Assembly (NCBI RefSeq): GCF_011604685.1
Contig: NZ_CP050063.1
Span: 6,303,001 to 6,367,000 of the forward strand
Direction of reading: 5' to 3'
DNA length: 64,000 nt
Origin: Spirosoma aureum
Lineage (GTDB): Bacteria; Bacteroidota; Bacteroidia; Cytophagales; Spirosomataceae
Part shown: positions 34,017 to 64,000 of the stretch, piece after piece
Position numbering within the stretch: position 1 is the first letter of the stretch
Layout: every line of letters begins with the position of its first letter
The notes under the pieces: model-generated
Told to the model about the DNA's origin: nothing
Database searches by the model: none
What the model saw: the letters and a program-made list of their open reading frames with translations, nothing else
Made by a program: the position numbers and the translations under genes

Positions 34017-34055
34017 ACAAGTTACTGCCACTAAACTGCCACCAAATTGGCCCAA

Positions 34056-34081
34056 AACTGCCACTGCCACTGCCACTGCCA
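34056..34081. repeat. Hexanucleotide repeat ACTGCC
   Basis: Four tandem copies of the 6-bp unit (ACTGCC), just upstream of the integrase start; single ACTGCC or TGCCAC units also occur at 34022-34042. In the integrase frame it encodes alternating A and V. A 6-bp unit keeps the frame when copy number changes. Confidence 0.8.
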
Positions 34082-34111
34082 TTAGACTTCCATTATCAAA
34101 AAAAGCAACAA

Positions 34112-44287: not shown

Positions 44288-45705
44288 TGGCTAAGAACAG
44301 CAAAACTGTCGAATATTTTGAGGGAGCCTACCACGACGTAGCCATCCTGTCCAGTGCTGGCGTCGAAGTAGCGCTGGAACATGACCGTCCCGCCAATAAA
44401 AAATCGGCCTTTGAACCCTCCTCTCAGCCCAAAGGCAAGCCCTCAGCCGCGGTTCCGGATGAATCCCAGTTCCCGTCTATTGGTGGTGATATTCTGTCCT
44501 GGGGAGATGGCAATGATTTCCCTCAGCGCATGGTCGACCTCTACAATCAGGATCCGATCATCCCGGCCACGCTGGGTAAACTATCGGCCATGATTCAGGG
44601 TCAGGGCCTGATTGCTGTGCTGGAGGATATCGGCGACGATGGCAAAGAAGTCGTGCGGCCACTGGTCGGTCCAGCCAACATTGTCGCCGAAATACAGGAG
44701 TTTATCAGCAATGAGCTGTTCCAGCTTTATCTGCGGGAAATGGCCGCCGATGCCGCCTGGTTCTTCAATGGCTGGCCTGAAATGCTGGTCAGCAAGGATC
44801 GCACGAAAATTGTGCAATTGCACCCCTTGAGTGCGGAGGAGGTTCGCTGGTGTCGGATGCGGCCCGATGGCAGTTTGCCCCACGTTTATCTGAACGCCAA
44901 CTATCCCCGCAATAACAGCGAGAGCGCCAGTACGGTCAAAATCAATGCCATCGACCCCTACCGCTGGGACGCAGTCGACTGGCTCCGGGAAAGCAGTTTT
45001 TACAACTGCGTCTATCCGATATCGATCCCCACACCCGGCAAACGGTTTTACTCGCTTCCCCACCACTACAGCCTGGTCGAATCAGGCTGGCTCGATGTGC
45101 ATTTAGCCATCCCCGCCTTCAAGAAATTTCTGATGAAAAATCAGATGACCATCAAGTATCACTGGAAGGTCGATAAGGATTACTGGGGGTCGATGTATGG
45201 GGAAAAATACACCAAAGGTTCTCCAGACCAGAAGCGGGCCATCAAACAGAAGTGGCTGAATCAGATGAACAAGCAGCTCACTGATGTCAGTAAAGCGGGT
45301 AACTCGATCATTACCGACGTCACCTGGGATCCGGTCAATAAGCTCTTTAAAGATCACATCACGGTGACAGCCATCACCGATACGATGAAAGACGGCAAGT
45401 TCCTCGATGACAACATGGAGGCTGCCGCCAACATTTACTACGCCCTCAACTGGGATCCCACGATTTCAGGCTATCAGGGTGGTGGCAAAGGCGGCTCCCG
45501 CTCCGGTGGATCCGACAAACGCGAAGCCTACCTCATCGCCCTGCAGATGATCAAGCCCTTCCGGGATATGGTCCTGCAGCCAGTTCTGTTCACAGCCAAA
45601 TACAACGGCTGGAAAGCGGCCATTCCCAAACTGGGCTTTCGCTGGCGTGATACGATTCTGACCACCCTGGATACCGGAGCCGGTACCGCTAAAAAGGTAA
45701 GCTAA
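44287..45705 (+). CDS. Portal-like phage protein
   Basis: A 472-residue product. The N-terminal third has the pattern I-L-S-W-G-D-G-N-D-F-P-Q-R-M-V-D-L-Y-N-Q-D-P, then L-S-A-M-I-Q-G-Q-G-L, seen in portal proteins of Bacteroidota phages. Long helices and the clip region Q-I-L... are followed by Y-Y-A-L-N-W-D-P-T-I-S-G and a G-rich loop, then A-L-Q-M-I-K-P-F-R-D-M. Length and position (start of the late operon) fit. Role: dodecameric ring at the capsid vertex for DNA packaging (family knowledge). No terminase gene precedes it here. The stop overlaps the next start by one base. Confidence 0.65.
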   Translation: MAKNSKTVEYFEGAYHDVAILSSAGVEVALEHDRPANKKSAFEPSSQPKGKPSAAVPDESQFPSIGGDILSWGDGNDFPQRMVDLYNQDPIIPATLGKLSAMIQGQGLIAVLEDIGDDGKEVVRPLVGPANIVAEIQEFISNELFQLYLREMAADAAWFFNGWPEMLVSKDRTKIVQLHPLSAEEVRWCRMRPDGSLPHVYLNANYPRNNSESASTVKINAIDPYRWDAVDWLRESSFYNCVYPISIPTPGKRFYSLPHHYSLVESGWLDVHLAIPAFKKFLMKNQMTIKYHWKVDKDYWGSMYGEKYTKGSPDQKRAIKQKWLNQMNKQLTDVSKAGNSIITDVTWDPVNKLFKDHITVTAITDTMKDGKFLDDNMEAAANIYYALNWDPTISGYQGGGKGGSRSGGSDKREAYLIALQMIKPFRDMVLQPVLFTAKYNGWKAAIPKLGFRWRDTILTTLDTGAGTAKKVS

Positions 45706-46693: not shown

Positions 46694-47035
46694 ATGGCAA
46701 CTCAATCCAACAAACCGCAAATACCCGCCTGGCTCGAGTTCGTCGTCGACAAACTGGTGCTGATTCTGCTCATTTTATTGGAAAACTGGCTGATCATCTT
46801 CGTCTTCCTGATGGCGTTTGGTGTCATCTCCAGCTGTAAATCCAAACCGCAAGCTCCTGCTCAATCGATCCCCACAATGCCCCCGATTGATTCGGTGCGC
46901 CTAAAACTTGAACAGGAGGCCCAGTGGTCATCGGGTAATGGCATGGCCACCAGCAAGCAACAGTCTCAATCCGCAATCATTGACTATGAAAAAGCTAAAC
47001 AATACTTTGATACGAGCCGGGTTACTCTTCCTTAG
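46694..47035 (+). CDS. Lysis-cassette membrane protein, spanin-like
   Basis: A 113-residue product with one or two adjoining hydrophobic helices (about 14-45: V-D-K-L-V-L-I-L-L-I-L-L, then L-I-I-F-V-F-L-M-A-F-G-V) ending I-S-S-C-K-S. The last segment could be a lipobox. The C-terminal part is polar and Q-rich. Its last 50 bp overlap the start of the next gene in another frame, an arrangement reminiscent of Rz/Rz1 spanin pairs. With the muramidase and holin-like gene downstream this suggests a lysis cassette. No sequence homology is claimed. Confidence 0.55.
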   Translation: MATQSNKPQIPAWLEFVVDKLVLILLILLENWLIIFVFLMAFGVISSCKSKPQAPAQSIPTMPPIDSVRLKLEQEAQWSSGNGMATSKQQSQSAIIDYEKAKQYFDTSRVTLP

Positions 47036-47576
47036 CCTGGTGATCGGCCTGCTACTCAGCAAATGTTCCTATGGCCAGACCCAGTCCGCGCCATCGGTGC
47101 AGGCCATGGTACGGAATCAGCCGTTTCCGTACCATTCCGGAGTAGCCATGGACACGGTGCTCTATGTCCGGGTGAAGACCAGGCTGATCGCTGCCGATTC
47201 GCTGCGAGCAGCTGCCGAGAAGGCGATTAAAACACTCCAGTCTGAACTTTTGGCTACGCGCAAAGCCATCGATGATCAGTTTCGACTCGGTCAATATGAC
47301 AAAGCCAAAGCACAAACCTTGCTGGCTCAGCTCAATATCCTGCAGGGGCAACTCGTCCAGGCACAGGATTGGCTGCGTCAGGCACAGCTGGCCCGAGATG
47401 CCGTCGTGAAGGAGCTGCCCCGAAAGGTTCGTAAGCTACTGGAGCAGGCCACACCCGATCAGATTGCTGCGGCAACCGTGGACTACATTCATGTGCTGCA
47501 AAAGCGGAAATGGAAATGGGCGGGCTGGAGTGTGGGTGGTGGGTTTGTACTCGGACTCTTAACCGGTTTCTTTTAA
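46986..47576 (+). CDS. Lysis-cassette protein with coiled coil and two membrane ends
   Basis: A 196-residue product from ATG 46986 (M-K-K-L-N-N-T-L). N-terminal hydrophobic segment L-L-F-L-S-L-V-I-G-L-L-L-S-K-C-S with a possible lipobox, a long coiled coil (about 75-150, A-L-Q-L heptads) and a C-terminal membrane helix (W-A-G-W-S-V-G-G-G-F-V-L-G-L-L-T-G). Spanning two membranes with a coiled coil between is what a unimolecular spanin does (family knowledge). It overlaps the previous gene by 50 bp; the muramidase starts one base after its stop. Confidence 0.55.
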   Translation: MKKLNNTLIRAGLLFLSLVIGLLLSKCSYGQTQSAPSVQAMVRNQPFPYHSGVAMDTVLYVRVKTRLIAADSLRAAAEKAIKTLQSELLATRKAIDDQFRLGQYDKAKAQTLLAQLNILQGQLVQAQDWLRQAQLARDAVVKELPRKVRKLLEQATPDQIAAATVDYIHVLQKRKWKWAGWSVGGGFVLGLLTGFF

Positions 47577-47577
47577 C

Positions 47578-48171
47578 ATGGGTAAGTCACTCACGGGAGC
47601 TGGCCTGCAGCTGGCAGCCCACTCGCTGCGGACGGGTATTGCGGAAGTACGCACACTGGCTGCAGTCGAATCGAACGGGCAAGGCTTTCTGGACGATGGC
47701 CGAGTGACGATCCGCTTTGAGCCGCACATTTTTCACCTGCGTACCGCTGGGCGTTACGACGTCACGTATCCGCATCTGAGTTACAAAGAGTGGAATCCAA
47801 AGATTCCCAAGAATACGGAGCACTCCTATCAACTCTTTAACCAGGCCTGTACGCTCAACGCGACGGCAGCGGTGCTGAGCAGCTCATGGGGCATGTTTCA
47901 GGTGATGGGCTTCAATTTCGCCAGTTGCGGGTGTAATAACCTCAAGCAGTTTGTCACCCTGATGGAGAAATCCGAAGATTCACAACTGGAGCGGACAGTC
48001 ATTTACCTGTTGACAACCGGCCTCGATGATGAACTGCGCGAACACCGCTGGGAGGATCTAGCCCGCTTGTATAACGGCAAACAGTATAAGCGAAACCAAT
48101 ACGATACGAAACTGGCAGCTGCTTACGAGCGGTTTGCTGCAATGCCTACAATCACCCTTTTAAACCCCTAA
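47578..48171 (+). CDS. Phage endolysin, N-acetylmuramidase family
   Basis: A 197-residue product. It matches the N-acetylmuramidase (DUF3380-like) family: T-L-A-A-V-E-S-N-G-Q-G-F with Glu31 as likely catalytic acid, F-E-P-H-I-F-H, S-S-S-W-G-M-F-Q-V-M-G-F-N, then F-V-T-L-M-E-K-S-E-D-S-Q-L and L-A-R-L-Y-N-G-K-Q-Y-K-R-N-Q-Y. Family knowledge: it cleaves the glycan chains of peptidoglycan for host lysis. There is no signal peptide, so export would need the holin. It sits between two putative lysis membrane genes, inside the structural operon. Confidence 0.88.
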   Translation: MGKSLTGAGLQLAAHSLRTGIAEVRTLAAVESNGQGFLDDGRVTIRFEPHIFHLRTAGRYDVTYPHLSYKEWNPKIPKNTEHSYQLFNQACTLNATAAVLSSSWGMFQVMGFNFASCGCNNLKQFVTLMEKSEDSQLERTVIYLLTTGLDDELREHRWEDLARLYNGKQYKRNQYDTKLAAAYERFAAMPTITLLNP

Positions 48172-49997: not shown

Positions 49998-51980
49998 ATG
50001 GCCGTCACCCTCCTCAGCACTCCCGACCTCTTCGCCCTCACCCGTGGAGGGCGCATGGTCTACCAGTTCCAGGGAACGGGTCAGCAGGCTACGCTCGGAA
50101 CACCGGCCCAGAGCTTTATCAATTTTTCCGGACCAGTACCGGCGGGCACCGTCATTCGGCTGAAATGGAATGGCACCGAGCATCCCATTGTTGCCCGCAC
50201 CAATCCCACGGAAGCCAATGAATTTCCGGCTGGGGATGGTTCTTCGGCTTATGTAGACTCCCTGCTGGAGTTCTTTCAGAGCTATTTCCCCTTTTACGAG
50301 GATTTTATCGCCGAGCGGCTTGATTTTATCAACCTGCATCAGATCCTGCTGGCAGCCAAGCAGCCCGGCCCCCAGTTCAATATCTCGGCACCAGCCGTCA
50401 GTAATGCCATTGAAGTGGTGGTCGGTACGCCGGGAGCTGACCCGATTGTTCGCGAGCAGTATGGCGTCTATGCCGAGATCTGGGTCAAGCGACCGGGCGA
50501 AAGTAGTTACACCCGAATATTTGCGCCGACGATCGCCTGTGATGCCGAGGGCATTGCGACCATGGACGTGGGCAAAATACTGCATGGTCAGTTAGGCCCT
50601 GACTGGCCTACCTGGAGCTATAACCAACCCACCGGCTCCACCCGTTCGCAGCTCAGCTACTACGTCACCTATGCCGAATCGTTTGGGCAACCCCAGCAGG
50701 TCGGTAAGATCCAGAAAGACGATGTGCGCCAGGCTTATTTTGGCGGGGTTGATTATCAACACCAAGCTGGACAGGGTTTTGAGCTGGCCAGTTATGTGGT
50801 GCGTCAGCCGGATGCCGGTTCCGATCGGGCCTTGCGGCTGGGTTCCTTTACCCGGTATGTCCGATCGAATGAACCGCAATTCCTGACGTTTCTCAATACG
50901 CGTGCTGATCGGGCCGATGTGCACCTGCTGGTGGAGCTCACCTTTGCTGACAACAGTAAATTCTACTACAACACCCGCTACGCCCCCCAAACCTGGCCCA
51001 AAGGATCAAAAATTACGTATGCCGTTGGGCCTGCTCAACTTAACATCGCTGATCAGCTGAACGATGGCGATACCGTGGTCGAGTACTCCGTCTGGCTGGC
51101 CAATACCGACTCAACGGCGTACTATTCGCAGAAGTACCGGTTCATTCTGGTATCCAGTTATGAGCCGTTCACGCGCTACTTTGCCTATCTCAATAGCCTG
51201 GGGGCCGTCGATACGGTTACGACGTTCGGCAAAGGCTCTTATGAGCTAACCCGTTTTTACGAGCAGGCCAATCAGTATTTACCGGCTCATTATAATGCGG
51301 AACTGGGCCAGTTTGTCCAGTACGATGTCTCCCTGCAGCAGCAGATCGAGGTGGCCACCGGCTACCGCACATTCACCGAATTGATGGGCTGGAACGATGT
51401 GTACCGATCAGCCTACCTGTTTCACATGCAGGCGACCAAAGCGCTGCCCATCGCCATTGTTTCCAAAAGCATTAAGCAGGGGAAGGATCAGGATAACCTC
51501 TACGCGCACACGTTTCAGTTTGTCTACCGCTGGCAGGAATCGTTTTTCTCTGAAGAGCAGGATCCTGAGCTGATCGGTGAACCGGCTCCCCCTTTAAATA
51601 CGCCAACCGGGCCAGTGACCATCGAGCAACCGACGGTGATCGATTCGGTCGACCATACGGTGCCGGATGTGGTGCGTGGGATAACTGATCAGAAAGTGGG
51701 CAACTGGAATCAGGCGTATGCGTGGGGGAATCATGCCCTTCAAGGCTACCTGAAGCAGGATACAGCCTCCCAGCTTTTCTACAGAAAAGATTCCAAAATC
51801 GACTACCAGGCTGATCTGATCAACAAGCCTTTCAGCCGTGATTCGGCGGGTCTGACGGACGTGCTGACCATAGACGAAACGGGCGATCTGGCTCTACTGA
51901 ACGCGTTTACACAAATCAAAAAACTTGTCGGCTTTCGCCCAGTTGCCCGCAGCTGGACTGGCGATGACGAACCCCAATAA
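49998..51980 (+). CDS. Large tail/baseplate-type structural protein
   Basis: A 660-residue product starting M-A-V-T-L-L-S-T-P-D-L-F-A-L-T, a beginning seen in Bacteroidota phage structural proteins. The middle is beta-rich with repeated fibronectin-like strands (S-Y-Y-V-T-Y-A-E-S-F-G, V-V-E-Y-S-V-W-L-A-N). Near the end is a phage fibre motif, V-G-N-W-N-Q-A-Y-A-W-G-N-H-A-L-Q-G-Y-L, also seen in other Bacteroidota fibre proteins. No signal peptide. It begins the adhesion module; the next gene starts 4 bp later. A baseplate or fibre-attachment role is inferred. Confidence 0.7.
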   Translation: MAVTLLSTPDLFALTRGGRMVYQFQGTGQQATLGTPAQSFINFSGPVPAGTVIRLKWNGTEHPIVARTNPTEANEFPAGDGSSAYVDSLLEFFQSYFPFYEDFIAERLDFINLHQILLAAKQPGPQFNISAPAVSNAIEVVVGTPGADPIVREQYGVYAEIWVKRPGESSYTRIFAPTIACDAEGIATMDVGKILHGQLGPDWPTWSYNQPTGSTRSQLSYYVTYAESFGQPQQVGKIQKDDVRQAYFGGVDYQHQAGQGFELASYVVRQPDAGSDRALRLGSFTRYVRSNEPQFLTFLNTRADRADVHLLVELTFADNSKFYYNTRYAPQTWPKGSKITYAVGPAQLNIADQLNDGDTVVEYSVWLANTDSTAYYSQKYRFILVSSYEPFTRYFAYLNSLGAVDTVTTFGKGSYELTRFYEQANQYLPAHYNAELGQFVQYDVSLQQQIEVATGYRTFTELMGWNDVYRSAYLFHMQATKALPIAIVSKSIKQGKDQDNLYAHTFQFVYRWQESFFSEEQDPELIGEPAPPLNTPTGPVTIEQPTVIDSVDHTVPDVVRGITDQKVGNWNQAYAWGNHALQGYLKQDTASQLFYRKDSKIDYQADLINKPFSRDSAGLTDVLTIDETGDLALLNAFTQIKKLVGFRPVARSWTGDDEPQ

Positions 51981-51983
51981 GCT

Positions 51984-54788
51984 ATGCCAGGCATTCGCAT
52001 TGATACCCCGATCGGGGACGGCTGGGACTACTCGCTGGATTCGCAAACCTGGCAGAGCTCACCCAAATTTTCAACCAAGCCCGATGGCTCTGCTTTCGTG
52101 GTCGGAACGCTGTACACAGTCCATTGCCGACATCAGGAGCAGAACATCATCAAGGATGTGACCATCATCTTCGGAGAGGACTCCTCCGAGGCCATCTTTG
52201 ATACGATCGCTAAGCGGGGCACACCCGCTAAACGCGGCTGGACCGATCAGATCCTGCGTTTGATGGGCGGCATTATTTCGGATTTGCCGACAACGACTGA
52301 TGCGGATTATGCAACGGTGGTGATTGACGATCTGGGTAAAATGTGGCGCAGAGGAGGCAAAATCCTCGACTACATCCGGGTGACTGGCCCCAATGCGTTT
52401 CCCAAAAATCAGACGGGTCAGTTTGTGGCCACGGCCTACTATACCGATGGCACCAGCAAACCCGCTATTGGCGCAGTCTTCACCGTACAGGGGGTTGATG
52501 CGACCATCAACTTTGCCAGTGGTTTGATGACGCCCGGCCCCAACGCCGAGGTCGGTGGAGCTTATACCGTTACCGCCACGTTTAACGGCAAAACGCACTC
52601 AAAAGGCACCACGCTGACCGATCCAATTATCGCCTTTACGGTGGCGGGTGCACCGAAATACTTCGAGCCAGTCGGTCTTTTAGGCCCCAATTATGACGGC
52701 TCGTTGGATGTGGTCAACTGCTTTCAGATCACGGGCTGGGTGGCCGATCTCAACCACCCCAACATTCCCGCGCAGGCAAGAATCTACATTAATGGCATTC
52801 TGGCCACGACAATCACGGCCACTCAATCGCGTTCCGATGTCAGCCAGGCTAACAACCTAACCAATACGACGGGCCATATTTATGGGTTCTCGTATAATGT
52901 GCCGAGTTCGTTCCGGAATGGCACCGCCATTACCGTCGAGCTGAAGCCGGTATCCGGGAACAACGCCTTCCGATTCTCGCCAAAAACCTCCGCTGAGGCT
53001 TGTCTGGATCTATCGAACCTGCTCAATGTGGCTCAAAGCAAAACCGTCACGGCTGAGTTTGTGGGCTGGAGTGATGACTGGCTACCAGCCCACCTGACCG
53101 ATGACAATAACGCAACCGGCTGGACTTCGTCCTGTATCGCTGAAACGACACCGTCTACCATTCAGATTGATCTCAATGGGACAGCGGCTCCCCAGACGAT
53201 CTCAATTATGCCGCATCCAGCCGGGGATGGCGCTACCTGGCTACCCTTCGATTATGTGATTTGGGGATCGCTCGACGGAACCAGCTGGTTTGTGATGTGT
53301 ACGGTCTTGAATCAGTCCCGAACATCGGCAGAAATCGTACTGCCGGTGGAAAAGGATCTGTCGAACAATTACCGAACCGTTCGCTACGTCAAACTAGTCA
53401 CCAGTCGGAATGCTCTGGAGGCAGGCGGCTCCGGATGCGGCTACGTTCGCTTTGGTGAAATTCGTGTGCTGGCTCCCACCTTCACACCGTTGGATGGCCC
53501 GGCACAAAACCGTCAGCCCCAAAAGCTGGTGTTGTTTGGTGATTCGGGGATGAACGAGGGGACCAACAAAGACTACCAGGTCTTTTTGTTCTACACGAAC
53601 GGGGATTCCGAAGATGTCACGACGCTGGCCACGCTCTCGATCACCGGCACGGATGTGGGTTTTGCCTTGGTCGGTAATCAGGCCCGGTTGACGGCGGCTA
53701 CCAACAGCACCGCAGGCGATACCCGGACGGTGACGCCGAAGGCCAGTTATCTGGGTCTGTCAGCGACCAAGGACGTCAACGTCTATGATGCCTCGATTAC
53801 GGTCTATATCGTGAGCTACCGCATTGATCGGATCGAAGATTCAACCACTATCACCGAGGGCGGAGCCGCTGGTACCTTCAAGATCACCGCTGAAATGTCG
53901 GATGGATCTACCCAGCAATACACCCAGGCGGGCGCTTACGGCATCATTGCTCCCTATCCCGATGGCATGACGGCCACTACGGGTGCCAATGCGATCGGCA
54001 CGGTGACCCTGCCAGCCGGTTCGATCACCGCGAATCTCAACAGTGTGCTGCGCTTCACCTTCCCGGCCGGCGGTGGGTTTATCGAAAAAACGATTGCCCT
54101 GGTCAATGTAGCCGACACCGGTCCAAGCTTCACGGGCTACGACATAACAGGTGATCTGACCCTGAATGAAAGTGCCACGGCGACTGTCACCGGCAACTAC
54201 CAGGTTATTGAACGCTACGACGATAACAGCACCAGACTTTACACAGGCGGAGGTGCTTACTCGGTGGATCCGGCCTATCCGAATGGACTAAGCTATGCGA
54301 CTGGCTCCGCGGGTACCGGAACCGTGACGCTGCCGGCTAACAGCATCACGGGGGATGTGAATATTACCCTGCGATTCACCTTCCCCGGTAATAGCACCAT
54401 TACCAAGACCGTGCAGCTGGTTAATGTGGCCTCACCGGCCCAGCCCAGTAAAATCATGGCGGTCGATTTCCGCTACTTCCACGATGTATCGGCCACCTTC
54501 CACTGGTATGTCAAAACCGATATAGCCGCTGGAGTCCAGTATACGGTCGAGTGGCCAGCTCAGGGCTCCTATGCGGCTCAGATTAAAGCCAACGGGGGCT
54601 GGCTCAATGGCGCTGACTTTGACAACGATCCGGCAGGCTATCAGAAAGTGTGTGCCCTGATCCGGGACACCCCCGCTCAGTTCAAGCTCTACCTGCGCAC
54701 AGTGGATAATCCATCGGTGGAACTCCAGCTCACCATCAACCGGCCAAGCAGTAGCCAGGCCCGCCAAACCATCTATACCGCACCCTGA
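51984..54788 (+). CDS. Large tail fibre / adhesin with discoidin-like domain
   Basis: A 934-residue product without a signal peptide. The N-terminal part is a fibre-like collar (F-G-E-D-S-S-E-A-I-F-D-T). Ig-like (BIG2-type) segments follow, then a discoidin / F5/8-type-C-like module at about 345-500 (L-T-D-D-N-N-A-T-G-W-T-S, then Y-V-K-L-V-T-S-R-N, then G-Y-V-R-F-G-E-I-R-V). From about 540 two Ig-like repeats share T-I-T-E-G-G-A-A-G-T-F-K and L-T-L-N-E-S-A-T-A-T-V. Family knowledge: discoidin modules bind glycans. Likely a receptor-binding protein on the particle. Confidence 0.75.
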   Translation: MPGIRIDTPIGDGWDYSLDSQTWQSSPKFSTKPDGSAFVVGTLYTVHCRHQEQNIIKDVTIIFGEDSSEAIFDTIAKRGTPAKRGWTDQILRLMGGIISDLPTTTDADYATVVIDDLGKMWRRGGKILDYIRVTGPNAFPKNQTGQFVATAYYTDGTSKPAIGAVFTVQGVDATINFASGLMTPGPNAEVGGAYTVTATFNGKTHSKGTTLTDPIIAFTVAGAPKYFEPVGLLGPNYDGSLDVVNCFQITGWVADLNHPNIPAQARIYINGILATTITATQSRSDVSQANNLTNTTGHIYGFSYNVPSSFRNGTAITVELKPVSGNNAFRFSPKTSAEACLDLSNLLNVAQSKTVTAEFVGWSDDWLPAHLTDDNNATGWTSSCIAETTPSTIQIDLNGTAAPQTISIMPHPAGDGATWLPFDYVIWGSLDGTSWFVMCTVLNQSRTSAEIVLPVEKDLSNNYRTVRYVKLVTSRNALEAGGSGCGYVRFGEIRVLAPTFTPLDGPAQNRQPQKLVLFGDSGMNEGTNKDYQVFLFYTNGDSEDVTTLATLSITGTDVGFALVGNQARLTAATNSTAGDTRTVTPKASYLGLSATKDVNVYDASITVYIVSYRIDRIEDSTTITEGGAAGTFKITAEMSDGSTQQYTQAGAYGIIAPYPDGMTATTGANAIGTVTLPAGSITANLNSVLRFTFPAGGGFIEKTIALVNVADTGPSFTGYDITGDLTLNESATATVTGNYQVIERYDDNSTRLYTGGGAYSVDPAYPNGLSYATGSAGTGTVTLPANSITGDVNITLRFTFPGNSTITKTVQLVNVASPAQPSKIMAVDFRYFHDVSATFHWYVKTDIAAGVQYTVEWPAQGSYAAQIKANGGWLNGADFDNDPAGYQKVCALIRDTPAQFKLYLRTVDNPSVELQLTINRPSSSQARQTIYTAP

Positions 54789-55151: not shown

Positions 55152-57032
55152 ATGAAAAAGCTGCTTTTACTCTGGTTGCTGATCAGCAGTAGCCTTCAGG
55201 CTCAGACCTACCGACCGACCCTGCGCGAAAACGGCAACGACTATACCTACGCTCCTCAGGAAGCGAAGGCAGTCGTCAACTGGAAGCGGTTCCCCAGATT
55301 CTCCATTAATAAGGATTGGATCTACTGGGGCCCACGTTTTGTCAAGCGGAGCGGAGACATCGGCCAGTGGGACGATGATTTTCTGACGCATGGTTTTCGG
55401 CAGTTAGTGCCCAACCTGAACTATTCCGGAACCGGCAATGATGCCGTCAATAATCAGGACATTCTCAACAATGCAGGCAGTGCTTACATGGGCTATGTGC
55501 TCATGCCAGGCACGGCTAGCCAGATGCCGGATTATTTAAAAAATCCGTATAACGCTTTACCCGCCGGTGATTTAAAGGACAAAATCGGCCAGTATATCAA
55601 CTCGTTGATACCCGTCACCGACCCCACCGCCGCCAAACTAATGGGCCACTGGATGGGTGATTTGATTAAGAATTCCATCTGTGGGGGTAAAATCCCAAAA
55701 TGGGTGACGATCGATGAGGAAAGCGCCCACTACTGGGATGCCGGTGGCGAAGGCTCACTTCGCCTATTTGTGGGCTATCTCTACCAGGGGATTCTGGAGG
55801 TCTGCACGACCAGCAAAGTGTTTAGTTACGGCCCCAAGCCGATCCATGCACCAGGCTACAATGGCTATGCCGACATGGGGCGAAGCATTGGTGGGTATTT
55901 ATTCACCGAGCACCCCATTTATGGACCAAATTTCTGGTGGAGCACAGGCAACACTAGCGCCCCCTTAGATGTCAATAACCCGCTGGCTGTGGCTTTACGA
56001 GCCAACGGCGGTGGTGTGGCGGCTGGTGATCATTACTGGCGCACCACCATTGGTGCGATGTCCACCATCTACAAGAAGGATCCCCAGGGTGGCTATGTAA
56101 TGGTTGCCGGTCGACGCGTTCTGCGCACGGATAACTCAACCACAACCCTCTTCGGTAAAACCTTTACGGTGTATGGGTCTGATCCGAATTACTTCAATCA
56201 GAATGAATACGAGTATCATACGAACTGGATCTATGAGGAAATGGCTGGCGAAGAAGCCAACCGTTTCTGGATGAATGGCCGGACGTATGCGCTACGCAAG
56301 AATGATCGGAGTTCAGACTTTACGGGGGTAATGCTCGGTGACTGGTATAGGACCAACACCGAGGAAGCTAACGCGCCGGGCCAGGGCGATCCCCGGCCGA
56401 TCGATCCGGCGGCTCAGGAGCGAGGCACCATTTTTAGGGCCTTGATGCATGATGCTGAATTCCTCTGGCATGGGGAATATCTCCAGCGAGGCCCCACCAA
56501 TTTTGACTCTCAGGCCGTGCAATTGCCCGGCGTAACCGTCAATAATGGCGGCTATAAAACGAATCTAGGCCAGTTCGAATACATCGTCAAGGGCTTGCAT
56601 CGGTACAGTGAATTTGAAGGCCGTCCCTGGGGCAATTGGTATTGGATCCGGCCCCACCGGGGTATCGATGTAAATGCCGATAAATGGAAGGAGCCAGCCA
56701 TAAGAGGGCGGCTTTCCGAAACAGGCAATCACGTGCAGCTCTTTGCCTGCTGGCCCATGCTCGATCCCAGTGATGTGGTTCGGGTTGATGTCTGGGTTGA
56801 TACGGGTACCTGGAAGTCGGGCTCGACCCATTTTAACATCACCGGCCAGAATACCTATCTCGATGCCTGGCAGATTCCCGACGTGCCGAACGGGACGACC
56901 ATCCTGCCCCAGCACCTGCGCTTTCGCTTCACCACCCCACTGCTTCAAACACCCGAGACCTTCACCTGGACCGGTGATTATCGGTTCACAGCCAGCAATA
57001 GCGAGACCATCCCCGCTGCTCTAACCAATTAG
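55152..57032 (+). CDS. Secreted protein of the adhesion module, possible glycosidase
   Basis: A 626-residue product. It starts M-K-K-L-L-L-L-W-L-L-I-S-S-S-L-Q-A-Q, a complete Sec signal peptide of Bacteroidota type. The mature part has P-K-W-V-T-I-D-E-E-S-A-H-Y-W-D-A-G (about 183-200), with an acidic pair on a strand end reminiscent of a TIM-barrel glycoside hydrolase active site, and many aromatic residues (Y-L-F-T-E-H-P-I-Y-G-P-N-F-W-W). The C-terminal part is strand-rich. The fold and activity are not proven. A signal peptide inside a phage tail module is unexpected. Confidence 0.7.
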   Translation: MKKLLLLWLLISSSLQAQTYRPTLRENGNDYTYAPQEAKAVVNWKRFPRFSINKDWIYWGPRFVKRSGDIGQWDDDFLTHGFRQLVPNLNYSGTGNDAVNNQDILNNAGSAYMGYVLMPGTASQMPDYLKNPYNALPAGDLKDKIGQYINSLIPVTDPTAAKLMGHWMGDLIKNSICGGKIPKWVTIDEESAHYWDAGGEGSLRLFVGYLYQGILEVCTTSKVFSYGPKPIHAPGYNGYADMGRSIGGYLFTEHPIYGPNFWWSTGNTSAPLDVNNPLAVALRANGGGVAAGDHYWRTTIGAMSTIYKKDPQGGYVMVAGRRVLRTDNSTTTLFGKTFTVYGSDPNYFNQNEYEYHTNWIYEEMAGEEANRFWMNGRTYALRKNDRSSDFTGVMLGDWYRTNTEEANAPGQGDPRPIDPAAQERGTIFRALMHDAEFLWHGEYLQRGPTNFDSQAVQLPGVTVNNGGYKTNLGQFEYIVKGLHRYSEFEGRPWGNWYWIRPHRGIDVNADKWKEPAIRGRLSETGNHVQLFACWPMLDPSDVVRVDVWVDTGTWKSGSTHFNITGQNTYLDAWQIPDVPNGTTILPQHLRFRFTTPLLQTPETFTWTGDYRFTASNSETIPAALTN

Positions 57033-57067
57033 TGCCTGATTGCCCCTAACCCGTACAGTACTTCTCC

Positions 57068-59956
57068 ATGAAAAAGTTACTCTCCTTATTGGCTCTGTTG
57101 AGCCTGGCCCTGGCTGGGTTTGCTCAGGAAACTGAGTACTTCATCATCCGAAAAAAGAATTCGACGATTGACCTCTATAAGGTCTCCGCCACCCGCGACG
57201 TCTCGACCTATCCGAGTAACGATCAGGGGTATGAGTCCTTTCGTCAGGCCGTTTCCAATGGACTGGTCGTTCGCTATACTGAGGATGGTTGCCCCATCCC
57301 AATCGGCGTCCGGGCTCCTTTAACCAAACCGACCTGTGCCACTGTTATTTCTGTGGCCTACAACCAGACGTTTCAGGCCGAAGCGGCTGCCGGCTCCGGA
57401 GCGGTGTACGACAAACCCGGTGCTGAAGGTGGGCAAATTAAAGACGGTGAGCTGACCTATTCGGTGTCCAGCATTCCGGCCCCTGGGAGTTATACCATCA
57501 CCTTAACCTATCAATCGAACAGCTCGCCCCCCACGGCGGTGGTCAGTGTCAATAACGGCTCACCCACCTCGATTCCTCTGAACGCCACGGGGGGCGTTTT
57601 AAGTACGGTTTCAGCGACGGTACCTGGCTTTACGGCAGGTACCAACAGTGTAAAAATTACCCCGAACGGCTACTTTGCCTCTGACAAGATCGTGGTCAGT
57701 CGGGCGGGCTCGACCACCGTTACCAATCCGGGATCAGGCACGTCCACCAACCCTGGCTCCACTACTGGTCTCTTAGCGTTTCAGCACGGCTATTTTTGGG
57801 GCAATAGCTTCAACCGGGTTGGTGTTATTCCCAATTCGCAGTGGACAGCTGAGCGGGGTATGGCCGCTTCAGATCTGGCTCACGATTACTGCCATGTGCT
57901 GGAGACAGCGCTGAAGACAGCGAACCCCAACTTTTCGGCGTATGTCACAGCGGGAGGCAGCGTTTTCGAAGGCTCGTATCTGGGCAATCAGTATCCCTAC
58001 AGCAACTATATAACCGGGAATCTGAATTACAATTTTAACAACAGTCCGCCCCAGTTTGATCTGCTCGTATTAAGTATTGGCGAGAACATTAACGAAGCAA
58101 CGTTTAACAAAACGGAGTTTTTCGCGGGGCTCGACCAGGTTATCTCGACCGTTCCTAAATCGACAACCTATACGGTTGTTTTACGCAGTAGCTTTTGGGG
58201 TGGTCATACCACCTCCAGTGCCGCCCTGCAGGAGTATGCGAGCCTGCACAATTACAAGTTTGTCAATTTTAGCGATCGCATTGATTACCCAGCCTATCAG
58301 GCAACGACCGACCCTTTAGGTGTTCCGTATTCCGATGCGGGGATTCGGTCGCACTGGAACGATGCGGGTCATGCCGAAATAGCAGCCCGAATTGCGGCTC
58401 AATTAACGGGAACCACCAGTACGACACAGCCTGGTGGCGGTACCGGTGGCCAGATTGCCACCAATGGCGGCTATGGCAATATTTGGGGGGCCAATACCAA
58501 CTATGTCGAGCTATCGGAAACCACCCGGCCAAACCCCGCTGATCAGTTCCCGCGTTCGTTTTTAACCAACAGCATCGGTGCCCAGATTGCGGTCAATACG
58601 CAGGTGGGTTCGGTGGTTGACTTACTCTCGTTCCCTGATGCCAGCTCCGGCAAGAACCTGGTTAACTCACCGGTTTGGGGCAACGGCAAAACCGATGCGG
58701 GTCGCCAGTTAATGTGGAGCTGGTATGCCAACCCGTCTGGTGCCTATGATCCGGCTCACCCGGATCAGACCGAGGGACACTATGAGGAGAATGGTCAGTC
58801 GACGGCCCAAATGCATCCGCCTGGTTCGGGTTCAATTGGTTATAACCCGGTCATGGGTGGTGATGCGGGTCAGAATCCGACGTACGGTATTACCCACAAA
58901 CATCACAACGATGGGTCTACGATTTACATTAAATCGCAGGGTCTCCAGTGGGACATGGTGGGCATTTTCGCCAAGGCTTACACCGAAAACTGGATCAGTA
59001 AAGATCCGACGAGCAATCGAGCCTTCCGGATTCATGCGCGTTTGAGCCTGTTCCGGGATGATCCGTGGGCTTCTAAATTCCCAACACCCCGCCAGCAGGA
59101 GGCTCCCTGTCTCTATCAGGTAGTCGATTACCGCGATATCTATTACTGTGCCGGCACGCCTTATACGAACGCACCGCTGACCAATTACCCGATTAATTCG
59201 GAAGGGATTCAGCAGCCCGTTTTGACATCAGAACCGTTTCTATTGGCCAAAAACCCAATGAATGGTCGGTGTCTGGTGCTGATGATGTACACCAGCCGGT
59301 GGACCGCCGGTAAGTTCAACAACGAAGGCTTTACGACATCGACGAGCGTTCAATTTCCTTCCTACTACATCTCGGCAACTCCGCAGCTTTCGCTCGATCC
59401 CAACGGGGTTTATGACTTTGACAGTGCCGTGGGTGAATTTGCTAATGAATCCGATGCGCGGGCTTGGGTGAATGCGCAGCCGCACTGGGATGGTCATCCG
59501 CAGTTTGTGTTCAATACGCCTTCACGTCGTGGTTTTCTCTATCACAATTGTCAGGATCAGCGGGAAAGTAATATCACAAACAAGCTGGTGATTACCCCGA
59601 TGTTCAACAACGAGAACAACGGTAAGGATATGAACATCGGCCCGCCTGAAGTGTGGGTGGATGCGACCAACAATAAGCACATCTACATCAAGGGAGCCTT
59701 CACATCAACCACCAACACGATGTGGCTCCGCTACCGCAAAGCTGGCCCCGGTACCGGACAGGAGTTCTATAAAGAATTCACCCTGCCCAACATCACGGGT
59801 CAGGTTGGTGTGGTCGATATCGACATGTCAGGTGATCCCAACTGGTCGGGCAACGTGGCCAGCGTGGCCATTTCGCACCGCTCTCCCTATCCGGACGTGA
59901 CCAACGAGAAATGGGAAATCTATTACTGGTCTTTCGGCACTCACCTGGGCAACTAA
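57068..59956 (+). CDS. Secreted multi-domain SGNH hydrolase
   Basis: A 962-residue product. Signal peptide at 1-20 (ending L-A-G-F-A-Q). A CBM-like beta-sandwich follows (about 95-220: F-Q-A-E-A-A-A-G-S-G, N-P-G-S-G linker). The SGNH domain at about 235-450 has W-G-N-S-F-N-R-V-G (nucleophile Ser region), L-V-L-S-I-G-E-N-I and S-H-W-N-D-A-G-H-A-E-I (catalytic D and H). A T/G-rich linker then joins an unknown 480-residue C-terminal part. Family knowledge: SGNH enzymes deacylate polysaccharides or lipids. It likely acts on capsule or host surface glycan. The gene follows the glycosidase-like gene after 35 bp. Confidence 0.75.
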   Translation: MKKLLSLLALLSLALAGFAQETEYFIIRKKNSTIDLYKVSATRDVSTYPSNDQGYESFRQAVSNGLVVRYTEDGCPIPIGVRAPLTKPTCATVISVAYNQTFQAEAAAGSGAVYDKPGAEGGQIKDGELTYSVSSIPAPGSYTITLTYQSNSSPPTAVVSVNNGSPTSIPLNATGGVLSTVSATVPGFTAGTNSVKITPNGYFASDKIVVSRAGSTTVTNPGSGTSTNPGSTTGLLAFQHGYFWGNSFNRVGVIPNSQWTAERGMAASDLAHDYCHVLETALKTANPNFSAYVTAGGSVFEGSYLGNQYPYSNYITGNLNYNFNNSPPQFDLLVLSIGENINEATFNKTEFFAGLDQVISTVPKSTTYTVVLRSSFWGGHTTSSAALQEYASLHNYKFVNFSDRIDYPAYQATTDPLGVPYSDAGIRSHWNDAGHAEIAARIAAQLTGTTSTTQPGGGTGGQIATNGGYGNIWGANTNYVELSETTRPNPADQFPRSFLTNSIGAQIAVNTQVGSVVDLLSFPDASSGKNLVNSPVWGNGKTDAGRQLMWSWYANPSGAYDPAHPDQTEGHYEENGQSTAQMHPPGSGSIGYNPVMGGDAGQNPTYGITHKHHNDGSTIYIKSQGLQWDMVGIFAKAYTENWISKDPTSNRAFRIHARLSLFRDDPWASKFPTPRQQEAPCLYQVVDYRDIYYCAGTPYTNAPLTNYPINSEGIQQPVLTSEPFLLAKNPMNGRCLVLMMYTSRWTAGKFNNEGFTTSTSVQFPSYYISATPQLSLDPNGVYDFDSAVGEFANESDARAWVNAQPHWDGHPQFVFNTPSRRGFLYHNCQDQRESNITNKLVITPMFNNENNGKDMNIGPPEVWVDATNNKHIYIKGAFTSTTNTMWLRYRKAGPGTGQEFYKEFTLPNITGQVGVVDIDMSGDPNWSGNVASVAISHRSPYPDVTNEKWEIYYWSFGTHLGN

Positions 59957-59967
59957 ATCAACTCGCC

Positions 59968-60312
59968 ATGTTAATTAATCCAACTCCGAATCTAGAGCCG
60001 TTCCGCACGCATGCGGACTACATCAACCTGGCTAAACTGTTTTATGCAGCGGTCGGCATTCTGCTGCCGCACGAGCCCTTCTTTCAGAAGGAAATATCGG
60101 AGCACTGCGCGGGACACCATCTGCCTCCCTATGCGTTGGAGCTGTCCTATGTGCTGAATAACCCCTCGGCCACAACCGATCAACTGCTGATCTATCAGTA
60201 TCAGAGTGAGCTCCGGTTTGCCGAGGATTCAGAGCGGCCCATTCTCGACATCCTGATCGCGGTGGTCAAGGCGTTCCGGCACACGGTAACGCCAGCCCAT
60301 CACATCTATTAA
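59968..60312 (+). CDS. Unrecognised small protein
   Basis: A 114-residue helical product (M-L-I-N-P-T-P-N-L-E-P-F-R-T). It has Y-A-A-V-G-I-L-L-P-H-E-P-F-F-Q-K-E-I-S-E-H-C-A-G-H-H-L and A-V-V-K-A-F-R-H-T-V-T-P-A-H-H. No signal peptide. The histidine clusters could bind metal but no motif is fixed. ATG 59968 is chosen because it lies 11 bp after the preceding stop; an upstream frame overlaps that gene. Confidence 0.55.
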   Translation: MLINPTPNLEPFRTHADYINLAKLFYAAVGILLPHEPFFQKEISEHCAGHHLPPYALELSYVLNNPSATTDQLLIYQYQSELRFAEDSERPILDILIAVVKAFRHTVTPAHHIY

Positions 60313-60338
60313 CTGCAACCATTTCAACTACCTATAGA

Positions 60339-60818
60339 ATGACAACAAGTGAATTAGCAGCCATGGCTGGCCAGTGGAAACTGGATGCTTTCTACAACGA
60401 TGGTTCTGGCTATTTTTCCATTTACTTCTGGAATGTGGCTCACCCTTCGTGCCCCATTTCAAACTCTTGGATCTATGTCGAACAGTGGCCAGATCTTCGA
60501 CATGGCACCCTGACGTTTAACAACCTCACGCAGTGTGCAGCGACTTCGACCAGCTCTATCAATGCCGCTGCTGCCATTAACTCAATCGAGTTTGAGACAA
60601 TGACCAACATGAGCGGTGAGCAGGTGCAATGGTATTGCAATGATGATTCGTTGCCCTTCAGCTTTGGCCGTGGTATGGTCGATAAAAATTACAGAGTGTA
60701 TTTCCAGAATGGTGGAAACACAATGGTTTGGGAACATGACTATTACGATAGTCAGGATAATTATGTGACCAAAGCAATCGTCTGGGTTCGCGCCAGTGGT
60801 GGCCCTTCAATTCCGTAA
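60339..60818 (+). CDS. Unrecognised small protein
   Basis: A 159-residue product with lipocalin-like opening G-Q-W-K-L-D-A-F-Y-N-D-G-S-G-Y-F, then many aromatic strands (W-N-V-A-H-P-S, V-Q-W-Y-C-N-D-D, M-V-W-E-H-D-Y-Y) and cysteines at about 33, 66 and 104. The fold looks like a small beta barrel. No signal peptide is present, although the next two genes have one. Function unknown; it could be an accessory fibre subunit or a chaperone for neighbours. Confidence 0.55.
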   Translation: MTTSELAAMAGQWKLDAFYNDGSGYFSIYFWNVAHPSCPISNSWIYVEQWPDLRHGTLTFNNLTQCAATSTSSINAAAAINSIEFETMTNMSGEQVQWYCNDDSLPFSFGRGMVDKNYRVYFQNGGNTMVWEHDYYDSQDNYVTKAIVWVRASGGPSIP

Positions 60819-60826
60819 TCGATTCC

Positions 60827-61591
60827 ATGAAAAAACTGCTGTTTCTGTGGCTGGTGTCGGTATCGGCACTGGCCCAGACTCCAAACCGCCCACTGGAGCT
60901 GAACTATTCGGGCTATCTAGGCAACCCTGTTGAGGCAACCATCAACCTGGCTCCCTCCGACACAAGCCAGGTGATCACGGCTCGAGCGCTGGAGAGTGAT
61001 TTACTGCAGGCCGGGAAAGTGAGTCCACAGCCCGTCCTGAGTCGGGACGGATTGAACCTGAAAATCACCTTTCCCGCCAGCAACCTGGTCCGGGCATTTG
61101 TTGAGGTAAAAATTGGTCCCCTGATTCGCTATGCGGGCTGGTTGCAGGCCAGCAAAACGCCAACGTCTGCCCGAACGCCAACGGCGGTCCAGTACATCAC
61201 CCTGAAGGGCGATACAGGCCCCGTCGGTCCGGCTGGCCCCAAGGGTGACACGGGTGATCCAGCCAGCAACCTGGTGCAAAGTGTGGCCGGTCGACAGGGC
61301 GCTGTCCAGTTGATGTTTGCCGATCTGATCAGCCATCCGGGAACGCTGGCAGGCTATGGTATTACAGATGCGTACACCAAAAGTCAGACCTACACGCAAG
61401 CTGAAGTTACTACGCTTTTACAGGGCTATTACCTGCGCGTAACGGTCGCTACAAAAGCCCTGGCCAATGCAGCCGCAGCAGGCCCCCAGCCTAAAATCAT
61501 TACAGTCACCACGGATGAATCAGACGGCAATCGAACCAATAAGTACATCTATGACGGCGACAATCAACCCTTGCAATACCCTCTTTTTTAA
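60827..61591 (+). CDS. Secreted collagen-like fibre protein
   Basis: A 254-residue product with a Sec signal peptide (M-K-K-L-L-F-L-W-L-V-S-V-S-A-L-A-Q). A beta-rich head of about 110 residues is followed by a short collagen-like stretch (G-P-V-G-P-A-G-P-K-G-D-T-G-D, about 131-145), and a fibre tail with G-Y-G-I-T-D-A-Y-T-K-S-Q-T-Y-T-Q-A-E-V as in phage tail fibres, ending in a poorly defined C-terminus. Collagen-like repeats form trimers in phage fibres (family knowledge). Starts 8 bp after the previous stop. The N-terminal signal peptide is atypical for a fibre. Confidence 0.75.
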   Translation: MKKLLFLWLVSVSALAQTPNRPLELNYSGYLGNPVEATINLAPSDTSQVITARALESDLLQAGKVSPQPVLSRDGLNLKITFPASNLVRAFVEVKIGPLIRYAGWLQASKTPTSARTPTAVQYITLKGDTGPVGPAGPKGDTGDPASNLVQSVAGRQGAVQLMFADLISHPGTLAGYGITDAYTKSQTYTQAEVTTLLQGYYLRVTVATKALANAAAAGPQPKIITVTTDESDGNRTNKYIYDGDNQPLQYPLF

Positions 61592-61592
61592 G

Positions 61593-62831
61593 ATGAAAAC
61601 GATACTCGCACTCCTGTTTTTGGCCAGTACTGCCCTGGCACAATCCATTCCAAACCGTCAGGTTGATATTGGCGTATTGCCTCCGGTTAAGGTAACCAAT
61701 AATGACCTGCACATCCGTTCTGTGGATGATCGGGCCTACCGCATTTTGAAGGAGGGCCATTTGCCTAATATGTCGTTTGCCAGTACGCAGACGGGAGCTA
61801 GTCGTACAGTGCGAACACCCGGCAGTTCTGGCCCCTCGACAACATTTATAGTAACGCCAGGCTGCGTACTGGCCGATGGCGAACTGATTATCCAATCTGA
61901 TCAACCACTGGCCATTGCGGGCTTCATCAAACATGGAAACTATTCGGCTTCCAATACGGTAGGCGGGTCTTCGATCCCGCTGAATGTCATTGCAGCACCA
62001 GGTAATACATACCGGGCTACCCTGCCCAAATACCTCTATGAAGGTGCCCAGATCACTGTTTTCAGCCAATATTTAGCCCCACGTATCGTCAGTGATTCCA
62101 TTAAGGCTGCGGCCGTCACGGCCATGGTCAATGGCACCGAATTCACCAATCACCAGGTTTGGAATGCCCGTAAGGTTTGGTTGAATATCGGCGATAGCAT
62201 GTCGGGGGCGAATGCGATGGGTAATGATGCCGGTGGTAAACGTTACATGGGCCGTTGGCATTATTCGTTCGTGGGGGTGGACAGTTTAATCGCTGAAGGA
62301 AAAATAACCCGCCTGGTCAATCGACACCTCGACTCGGGAACATCCACCGATTTGGTGGAAGCCATCCGGAACGGTACACTCGATGACATTCCCTTTGATT
62401 TGCTGACAGTGTTTGTGGGCTTTAACAATGCCGGCTCATCGGCGGTCAACCAGCAGTTTACCGATGAGCTCAACGAGATCATTCGCTGGCGGAACCGGCA
62501 ATGGAATATCCGCTTAGTCGATGACCCAACGGTCCCCAAACCATCGATCATACTAATTGGAATGCCCGTCACGGACAAGACGCCCTATGTCTCAAACGTA
62601 GCTGGCTACCGGTCGGCCATGAGTGCGCTGGTCTCGACAGCCAACCGAGTCTATTACTATGATGCCAGTACAGCCTATAGCCTGAATGCCACCGCAACAG
62701 CGGACGTGAATATTTCCAGTGCCGATCGCACCGCTACCAACCGCGTACATCCGTCGGGCATTGGCAGTACGCTCATCGGAAAAGGACTTTACGCCATCAT
62801 CAAGACAACACCCTTTTATTCATCGTTCTAA
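61593..62831 (+). CDS. Secreted SGNH/GDSL hydrolase
   Basis: A 412-residue product from ATG 61593, giving the signal peptide M-K-T-I-L-A-L-L-F-L-A-S-T-A-L-A-Q. A beta-rich N-terminal part (about 20-190) is followed by an SGNH domain: block I N-I-G-D-S-M-S near 198-204, block III-like F-V-G-F-N-N-A near 274, and the catalytic R-V-H-P-S-G near 383-388. This is a complete GDSL layout, more canonical than the protein at 57068. It starts just after the fibre stop and overlaps the next start by one base. Likely a polysaccharide deacetylase/esterase of the particle or cell surface. Confidence 0.8.
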   Translation: MKTILALLFLASTALAQSIPNRQVDIGVLPPVKVTNNDLHIRSVDDRAYRILKEGHLPNMSFASTQTGASRTVRTPGSSGPSTTFIVTPGCVLADGELIIQSDQPLAIAGFIKHGNYSASNTVGGSSIPLNVIAAPGNTYRATLPKYLYEGAQITVFSQYLAPRIVSDSIKAAAVTAMVNGTEFTNHQVWNARKVWLNIGDSMSGANAMGNDAGGKRYMGRWHYSFVGVDSLIAEGKITRLVNRHLDSGTSTDLVEAIRNGTLDDIPFDLLTVFVGFNNAGSSAVNQQFTDELNEIIRWRNRQWNIRLVDDPTVPKPSIILIGMPVTDKTPYVSNVAGYRSAMSALVSTANRVYYYDASTAYSLNATATADVNISSADRTATNRVHPSGIGSTLIGKGLYAIIKTTPFYSSF

Positions 62832-64000
62832 TGATTGCCATCACTAACGAAGCGGGCGAAACACTTCAGCTGTTCGGCGATCAGAATCTGATCACCGAGC
62901 AGGCCGTCGCCTGGCTGACGGATGATGAGCTGCCAGCTGAGATTTCGTATCCGATCGATGCGCCGTTAAACGATGCCAACAAACGCTTTGTGGGCTATGG
63001 CTACCGGGTAGATGCGGCTCTGCCTCGCCAGACCATGCCGGTGACAGTACAGATGGAGGGCGTGCTGTATCGCCGGTGCATCTTTGCCTTCAAAGTACAA
63101 AACGGCAAACTCAATGGGTATCTGAAAATCGACAGTGCCGAGGTGTATGACAAACTCCGGCGGCTTACGCTGCTCGAAGCCCTGCCCGACGTGATTCGGT
63201 TAGGAACGGGTATTATCGATGCGGTTAATACCGTGACGCCCATTCTGGCTGATCGGATGAAAGCGATTGCGGCCATGCCTCCGGGGCAGTTTCCACTCAC
63301 GTTTTTTCCGATTCGTAACGAAGGCTTTTGGGAAGACACGCTCGATAACGTCAAGCTGCCTGGCTTCACTAAACAAACCTATGTGAATGTCTGGCAGCGG
63401 CTCCCCACTGGTCAACCAGGCTTTCATCAGGATGGTGGCTTTGTTCCGAATGAAAAAGGCTTTACGGTCGTACCCCAATTTTATTTATCGTGGGTGCTGG
63501 AGCGTATCATGGCGCTGGCTGGCTACCGGATCGAATCGAGCTGGCTGGCCAGTGAAGAAGTGCAGCGGTTAGTGATCGTCAACCAAACAGCCATGAACTG
63601 TAAAATCGGGCCAATTTTTTCCGATCCGGCTGGGATTCTACAGGGCCACCGGGTGACCGCTGGTATGCACCTGCCCGATATGAGTGTAAGCGATTTTTTA
63701 AAAGCCATCAAAGGGCGATTCGGGCTGGTGTTTGGATTTAATTCCAATACCCGCACCTGCTACATGGAACGCTTTGTGGATATGGTCCGGGCGGGAGCGG
63801 CTATCGATCTGACCGAATATCAGTCCGGCAATTACGACATCGACGAGCCCGATCTGAAAGGTTTTTCGGTCGCTGAGTTTATCGATTCGGGAGACGACCT
63901 GTATAAAGATCAGAAAGGCAATCTCATCCAGCCCGCTCCTTATGTTTCGGGTAAAGGTGGACAGCCGATTAGTCTGAAAGTCGGTACCTGCCAGATGATC
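62831..64000 (+). CDS. Structural protein, cut by the window edge
   Basis: ATG 62831 overlaps the previous stop (TAATG); at least 390 codons are open to the window edge. It starts M-I-A-I-T-N-E-A-G-E-T-L-Q-L-F-G, with V-T-V-Q-M-E-G-V-L-Y-R-R-C, then L-D-N-V-K-L-P-G-F and S-V-S-D-F-L-K-A-I-K-G-R-F-G-L-V-F-G-F-N. No signal peptide. The pattern resembles a beta-rich baseplate-hub or tail-associated protein of Bacteroidota phages (inference from context), and it continues the late operon. The C-terminus is outside the window. Confidence 0.65.
   Translation, partial: MIAITNEAGETLQLFGDQNLITEQAVAWLTDDELPAEISYPIDAPLNDANKRFVGYGYRVDAALPRQTMPVTVQMEGVLYRRCIFAFKVQNGKLNGYLKIDSAEVYDKLRRLTLLEALPDVIRLGTGIIDAVNTVTPILADRMKAIAAMPPGQFPLTFFPIRNEGFWEDTLDNVKLPGFTKQTYVNVWQRLPTGQPGFHQDGGFVPNEKGFTVVPQFYLSWVLERIMALAGYRIESSWLASEEVQRLVIVNQTAMNCKIGPIFSDPAGILQGHRVTAGMHLPDMSVSDFLKAIKGRFGLVFGFNSNTRTCYMERFVDMVRAGAAIDLTEYQSGNYDIDEPDLKGFSVAEFIDSGDDLYKDQKGNLIQPAPYVSGKGGQPISLKVGTCQMI

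Follow-up and report, generated by a model that had tools for sequence, protein, structure and literature searches.

Phages ordinarily make and assemble their tail fibres and tailspike depolymerases in the cytoplasm, with no secretion signal on these proteins. Exported phage proteins of the T5 Llp type reportedly block receptors, and Llp itself is said to be a small lipoprotein. According to one survey, target proteins of phage diversity-generating retroelements are without signal peptides (PMC6199706). A report on Porphyromonas gingivalis phages (proposed Nixviridae) describes five genes of unknown function with signals that follow the Bacteroidota 'Q rule', with glutamine at +1; the signal-like N-termini that it notes on spanins are attributed to lysis, and the ones on capsid proteins to cutting by the prohead protease (PMC10367356). 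Q-rule signals on phage proteins of unknown function are thus already known. The subject here is the tail operon of a phage element of Spirosoma aureum, located in a stretch of 64,000 nucleotides (the window; positions 6,303,001 to 6,367,000 of NZ_CP050063.1), which is part of a single 8.9-Mb contig. Four proteins of this operon, named below by their start positions in the window (55152, 57068, 60827 and 61593), carry predicted Sec signals of the signal peptidase I (SPI) type and lie in a cargo slot between two conserved tail genes, tailA and tailB.

The four open reading frames (ORFs) are open, begin with ATG and all pass a strict signal rule, which bears out the Sec signals assigned to them by an earlier sequence-only reading. 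The rule is a written heuristic, applied to ORFs from a simple caller, and demands a charged n-region, an uncharged 9-mer with mean hydropathy of at least 2.0, and small residues at -3 and -1. The 626-aa protein at 55152..57032 (+) begins with MKKLLLLWLLISSSLQA, followed by the predicted cut and QTY from +1 (signal 55152-55202). The 962-aa protein at 57068..59956 (+) begins with MKKLLSLLALLSLALAGFA, followed by QET (signal 57068-57124 if the cut falls between GFA and Q); an alternative cut three residues earlier, between ALA and GFA, scores equal or better by the written rule. The 254-aa fibre-like protein at 60827..61591 (+) begins with MKKLLFLWLVSVSALA, followed by QTP (signal 60827-60874), and the 412-aa protein at 61593..62831 (+), which has an SGNH-hydrolase-like domain, begins with MKTILALLFLASTALA, followed by QSI (signal 61593-61640). 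A lipobox with cysteine at +1 is not present in the four, all of which are of SPI type; lipoboxes occur instead on small slot genes (113-164 aa) of the related elements G002, G024, G015, G075a and G075b. The C-terminal sorting domain of the type IX secretion system (T9SS) gave no NCBIfam match to E 0.1 in eight signal-bearing proteins, including the four of the window, so that an identity as T9SS cargo is not supported.

Mis-called starts are unlikely for 57068, 60827 and 55152, in which ATG, GTG and TTG are absent from codons 12-45; TTG or GTG codons do occur within their hydrophobic stretches. In 61593 a later start is possible, at codon 29 (TTG) or codon 44 (GTG), and an in-frame ATG lies upstream at 61467; the two homologues found (P0021 and, from the same genome, P0020) each have 412 aa, the same length as from the start at 61593.

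Comparison covered 22 elements, namely the window element (own1), two further elements of the same kind in the same genome (own2 and own3, the sister prophages) and 19 from a family search. Another, G086, whose first gene encodes a signal-like 547-aa protein, was dropped, no tailA being found (contig end), and the tailA of G039 is cut by the edge of the stretch analysed. Where the stretch covered a gene and a homologue was found, the order was portal, DUF6712, lysis genes, p300, p167, tailA, slot, tailB, p165 and tape measure. Slot content varies between elements, with 160 ORFs called on the plus strand and 10 on the minus strand. The strict rule is passed by 33 of 104 large slot genes (at least 180 aa), by 0 of 164 conserved core phage genes of the same elements and by 0 of 2,093 internal-methionine starts, and the latter two controls reject a chance origin of the signals. 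The Fisher p of 7e-16 for slot against core genes is too small, because the elements are related; among large genes far from the modules, five of 106 pass (p 2e-7 against the slot). On these sequence statistics, Sec export is strongly supported, and the four proteins are predicted to be Sec/SPI substrates.

Counts by the strict rule are too low: inspection by eye added G121_12623 (giving 34 rather than 33), and G048_10514 passes a looser rule only. Under a permissive rule, glutamine stands at a possible +1 in all 34 signal-bearing slot proteins, and it does so too in the controls (9 of the 71 remaining large slot genes and 29 of the 164 core genes); the phylum-wide figure given in a published analysis is about 71% of SPI substrates (PMC10653852). 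Whether signals are conserved in related operons had been raised by the sequence-only reading, and at least one large signal-bearing slot protein does occur in 14 of the 22 elements, with four in own1, two in own2 and none in own3. Judged strictly, 12 of these 14 elements (all but G018 and G002) have no signal on their first large slot gene, and 10 have one on their last. Six of nine further non-duplicate loci also have large signal-bearing proteins upstream of tailB (L082, L083/L097, L084, L094, L100 and L090, but not L091, L092 or L102); L081, L085, L093, L095, L096, L098, L099 and L101 repeat elements already counted, and L086-L089, which repeat L083, L081, L085 and L084, were left out of the scan. 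In L090, homologues of tailA (E 6e-62) and tailB (E 2e-65) enclose a single large gene, which encodes a signal-bearing protein of 1,183 aa.

Where homologues with and without a signal are paired, the alignment begins at the mature N-terminus. The alignment of 57068 with a signal-free 786-aa own2 protein starts at their residues 22 and 3 (E 4e-10), and the two match again in the SGNH and C-terminal regions (31% across 821 columns). That of 60827 with a 265-aa slot protein of G039, also signal-free, starts at residues 17 and 2. The C-terminal part of 55152 is homologous to signal-free slot proteins of 741/742 aa in both sister prophages. Three signal-free homologues start without glutamine at that site, with M-ATEHLIV (P0015), M-ISHDFW (P0012) and M-NNPNIP (L095:6831), and the in-frame 90 bases upstream of signal-free homologues in own2, own3 and G039 encode no hydrophobic signal. 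Since no start codon follows residue 11 within the first 45 codons of 57068, 60827 and 55152, the signal was probably gained or lost rather than created by a mis-called start. For the 57068 family, a tree with 16 members requires two changes of label (signal or no signal), and a topology that unites its three signal-free rows is rejected (p-AU 3e-32); two of these rows are near-identical sister copies, P0014 was unscored, P0016 was scored as signal-bearing, and label shuffles are equally low in 75 of 500 cases. This tree may be distorted by modular swapping, and because signal-free rows are few, its count of switches is a lower bound. As judged from the alignments and the tree, the signal is a detachable prefix, apparently added or removed more than once in this family.

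The homologue search for 57068, in which the best 7,994 candidates were scored, gave 11 proteins, seven of which pass the signal rule; the signal-free P0012 is 41% identical over 97% of the query, and the signal-free P0015 comes from the same genome. The search with 60827 gave eight, of which P0001 is the query itself, P0002-P0006 pass the rule (41-91% identity, P0002 from the same genome), and P0007 and P0008 fail it and match only 8-13% of the query. Homologues starting downstream of the hydrophobic segment, which the sequence-only reading took to speak against export, thus exist in part: P0012, P0015 and L095:6831 start there, and P0002-P0006 and the seven 57068 homologues do not. Across 614 columns, 55152 shares 55% identity with the N-terminal portion of P0010 from Spirosoma terrae, which continues, after this portion, as a 57068-like protein.

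The structural model of 57068 predicts a small N-terminal domain, a CBM35-like carbohydrate-binding domain with the CBM35 beta-sandwich fold (residues 97-215; 57356..57712, +), an SGNH/GDSL esterase-like domain (residues 240-445; 57785..58402, +; PF13472 is precomputed in the homologue P0012), a fold like that of GH174 endo-fucanases (residues about 470-820; 58475..59527, +) and C-terminal beta domains. The likeness to the GH174 endo-1,3-fucanases 8jd7 and 9k1g is by predicted fold alone, with 6-8% identity and no sequence match. The AlphaFold models were built from alignments of 9 and 12 rows. The match of 61593 to PF13472 reaches 28.0 bits (E 3.7e-6), below the curated cut-off of 32.9, and its near-identical homologue P0020 carries the precomputed PF13472 assignment. 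The 61593 protein is 99% identical to its own2 copy (L034:14972-16210), and since the DNA identity is 98%, against 64-85% in the six core genes compared between own1 and own2, a recent exchange of this gene is indicated. Between the same two elements, dN/dS is 0.13 for 60827 and 0.075 for 61593. The layout of 60827 comprises an Ig-like N-terminal domain (residues 22-112), a short collagen-like stretch (128-143), an SVAGRQGAVQL motif (152) and a C-terminal domain, and the protein matches fibre profiles over short stretches.

Among signal-bearing relatives, L081:5176 matches phrog_35419 (1.5e-16), and L083:6431 matches phrog_701 (1.2e-25) and the tail spike family phrog_2234 (3.9e-6). Of the other eight proteins in that profile search, seven were without an annotated tail family at E 0.01 or without any match, and the eighth, L090:3536, matched unknown families only. 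The slot adjoins tail genes and the tape measure, in synteny across the 22 elements. These sequence relations suggest that the four proteins belong, at least in part, to tail-fibre, spike or depolymerase-type families; because of their secretion signals, they are not classed as ordinary fibres. They resemble tail fibres and tailspike depolymerases in genomic position, SGNH domains, beta-helix-like parts, a collagen-like stretch, an SVxGxxGxV motif and modular swapping, and differ from them in that the Spirosoma slot proteins bear Sec signals. With Llp they would share export of a phage protein to the envelope and a possible capacity to block receptors, but Llp is said to be a small lipoprotein, whereas the Spirosoma proteins are mostly large SPI substrates of fibre or depolymerase type. 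With the P. gingivalis phages they share Bacteroidota SPI signals with glutamine at +1 on phage proteins thought to be adapted to host secretion (PMC10367356); the Spirosoma set is distinguished by the large size of its proteins and their place in the tail-fibre slot, by the fibre, spike or depolymerase character of some, and by signal-free homologues in sister phages. The literature matches listed, mostly outside subscription papers, include no report of Sec-exported tail fibres, of a link between such signals and fibre families, or of on/off switching of the signal.

The reading preferred here, with a probability of about 0.5, is that the four are Sec-exported proteins that bind or cut glycans, are made together with the tail genes and act on the envelope or on extracellular polysaccharide. 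It is built on the signals, the family relations, the switching, the slot and the operon, from which we infer cleavage, late expression, location, substrate and function. A Q-rule signal would have been added to, or removed from, fibre, spike or depolymerase-type families more than once. Signal-bearing versions, produced with the tail genes, would be exported to the periplasm and would there, or elsewhere outside the inner membrane, bind, deacetylate or cut envelope or extracellular polysaccharide, and signal-free versions would do an ordinary virion job. On the producing cell, the exported proteins may strip or mask receptors or act in exclusion, and after lysis they may clear polysaccharide around the progeny. 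As the window proteins have neither a T9SS sorting domain nor a lipobox, the simplest outcome would be that they are soluble in the periplasm and set free by lysis. Export would be pointless if the protein need only be free after lysis, and would make sense for action on the envelope before lysis; it may also serve folding that requires the periplasm or keep the protein off the assembling tail.

The main rival, possible if rather unlikely, holds that the signal-bearing proteins are virion fibres or spikes that are exported by Sec, reach their fold in the periplasm and become part of the tail as the cell lyses or afterwards. Its more specific form, in which Spirosomataceae tailed phages would export receptor-binding proteins by Sec, cap them with pyroglutamate and join them to tails outside the cytoplasm, at or after lysis, the signal being switched on and off in evolution, is likewise rather unlikely. 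The lineage would either use receptor-binding modules as envelope-acting or receptor-removing enzymes or assemble its adsorption apparatus partly outside the inner membrane, and the sister prophages, which hold homologous proteins with and without signals in one genome, constitute a natural experiment. In either case, the Q rule would extend from a few phage proteins of unknown function to ones with identifiable domains. Lysogenic conversion, by which captured host-type secreted carbohydrate-active proteins would be expressed from the prophage and benefit the lysogen or block other phages, is improbable. The accessory, variable presence of the proteins (four, two and none in own1, own2 and own3) and their enzyme-like domains, including a GH174-like domain that recurs in two genes away from the elements, fit such a role, but 30 of the 34 signal-bearing genes lie no more than 40 bp behind an upstream gene on the same strand (four have longer gaps), which leaves little room for promoters of their own, and the families are common to signal-free slot proteins.

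That the hydrophobic N-termini are leftovers of domain capture, membrane anchors or phage-protease substrates with no functional Sec export is very unlikely. The hydrophobic N-terminus of the homologue P0014 fails the strict rule, and the prohead-protease cutting proposed for P. gingivalis phage capsids is a precedent (PMC10367356); against this stand the passing signals of P0002-P0006, the low dN/dS, and glutamine at +1 in 34 of 34 proteins (controls: 9 of 71 and 29 of 164). Of the three options offered by the sequence-only reading, host-surface factors of a prophage and fibres added in the periplasm are both candidates, and the third, a domesticated tail-like structure served by exported fibres, is scarcely credible for the window element. 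That element keeps open genes from portal to tape measure together with lysis genes and has no head genes, as domestication would predict, yet a terminase-like gene lies upstream on the same contig in 12 of the 14 signal-bearing elements (the exceptions being the window element and G069, which has the gene on another contig), so that the signals are independent of domestication. The terminase-like gene is found on the same contig in 17 relative elements; compared with the terminase annotated in phage BT-TP2, the identity is 28% (E 2e-39).

Several results weigh against the preferred reading. The fibre assignment of 60827 comes from short stretches and a weak model (pLDDT 54), and 55152, 57068 and 61593 have no PHROG match. 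Three of the 11 homologues of 57068 (P0012, P0014 and P0015) fail the signal rule outright and P0016 scores a low 3.7, and eight of the 22 family elements are without any large signal-bearing slot protein. The GH174-like domain occurs in two genes off the three elements, G000:C1:4471191-4477064 (-) (L159) and 8683066-8684499 (+) (L160, with a lipoprotein-like N-terminus by eye), so that capture from exported host enzymes is possible. As prohead-protease cutting has been proposed for signal-like capsid N-termini of P. gingivalis phages, a signal-like N-terminus need not mean Sec export (PMC10367356). In the stretches covered of the isolated phages BT-TP2, B40-8, phi13:1 (50 of 76.7 kb) and FCL-2, no large signal-bearing protein occurs among 206 ORFs of at least 80 aa from a simple caller; the passers there are a single SPI protein of 128 aa and four lipoproteins, likewise small, of 127-173 aa. 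At 20 order-level places among the matches listed, six of 147 large upstream ORFs pass the strict rule, and the five passers listed, each 185-194 aa long, precede the gene that takes the tailA position. Missing in order-level relatives, the trait appears local to the Spirosoma lineage, and signals as a general Bacteroidota phage trait are not supported by the four isolated phages or by these relatives. The slot is empty in three order-level relatives (L138, L139 and L140), as a tailA homologue directly precedes tailB with no genes between, and by eye in others among L136-L155; the cargo slot may be an innovation of a narrower lineage or have been lost elsewhere.

The operon itself is largely as the sequence-only reading had described it, with tightly packed same-strand genes, an endolysin and fibre-like genes; the portal-like assignment stands on a weak match. 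The portal-like gene (44287..45705, +; E 0.004) and the gene for a DUF6712 protein (PF20459; 45705..46673, +) are both syntenic in relatives. A probable spanin pair (46694..47576, +) comprises an ORF with a weak Rz-like match (46694-47035) and a second from 46986. This second putative spanin gene begins inside the first and encodes a hydrophobic N-terminus with an LLSKC motif that fails the strict signal rule. The endolysin, with a profile match to the PF11860 muramidase family, lies at 47578..48171 (+). The 5' border of the slot is formed by the conserved tail protein tailA (49998..51980, +), which is signal-free in the 22 elements, and is followed by a 934-aa signal-free slot protein with an F5/8 type C domain match (51984..54788, +). 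At the 3' border, the conserved tail protein tailB (62831..64000, +) ends at 64921, outside the window, where the operon continues with the tail genes 62831-64921 and 64918-65415 and the tape measure 65472-68744 (tape-measure profile matches, best E 1.9e-40).

Both sister prophages have terminase-like and head-protease genes upstream of the portal gene. Their head-side genes were searched for in the window element and its surroundings (91 kb), and the sole match was to a protein of 77 aa, encoded at 75.2-75.4 kb and so not within the tail operon. From 44287 to 68744, the window element thus has open portal, lysis and tail genes and is without the terminase-like, head-protease and other head genes of its sisters; it may be a remnant, a tail-only particle or a helper-dependent element.

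Tyrosine-recombinase-like genes flank the region at 32826-34082 (-) in the window and at L002:18702-19922 (-); the former matches integrase profiles, the latter is recombinase-like by eye, and the two suggest nested or degraded integration events. In the sister prophages, more signal-bearing genes lie just downstream of the tape measure (own2 42202 and 42771; own3 42319), comprising one lipoprotein and two SPI proteins.

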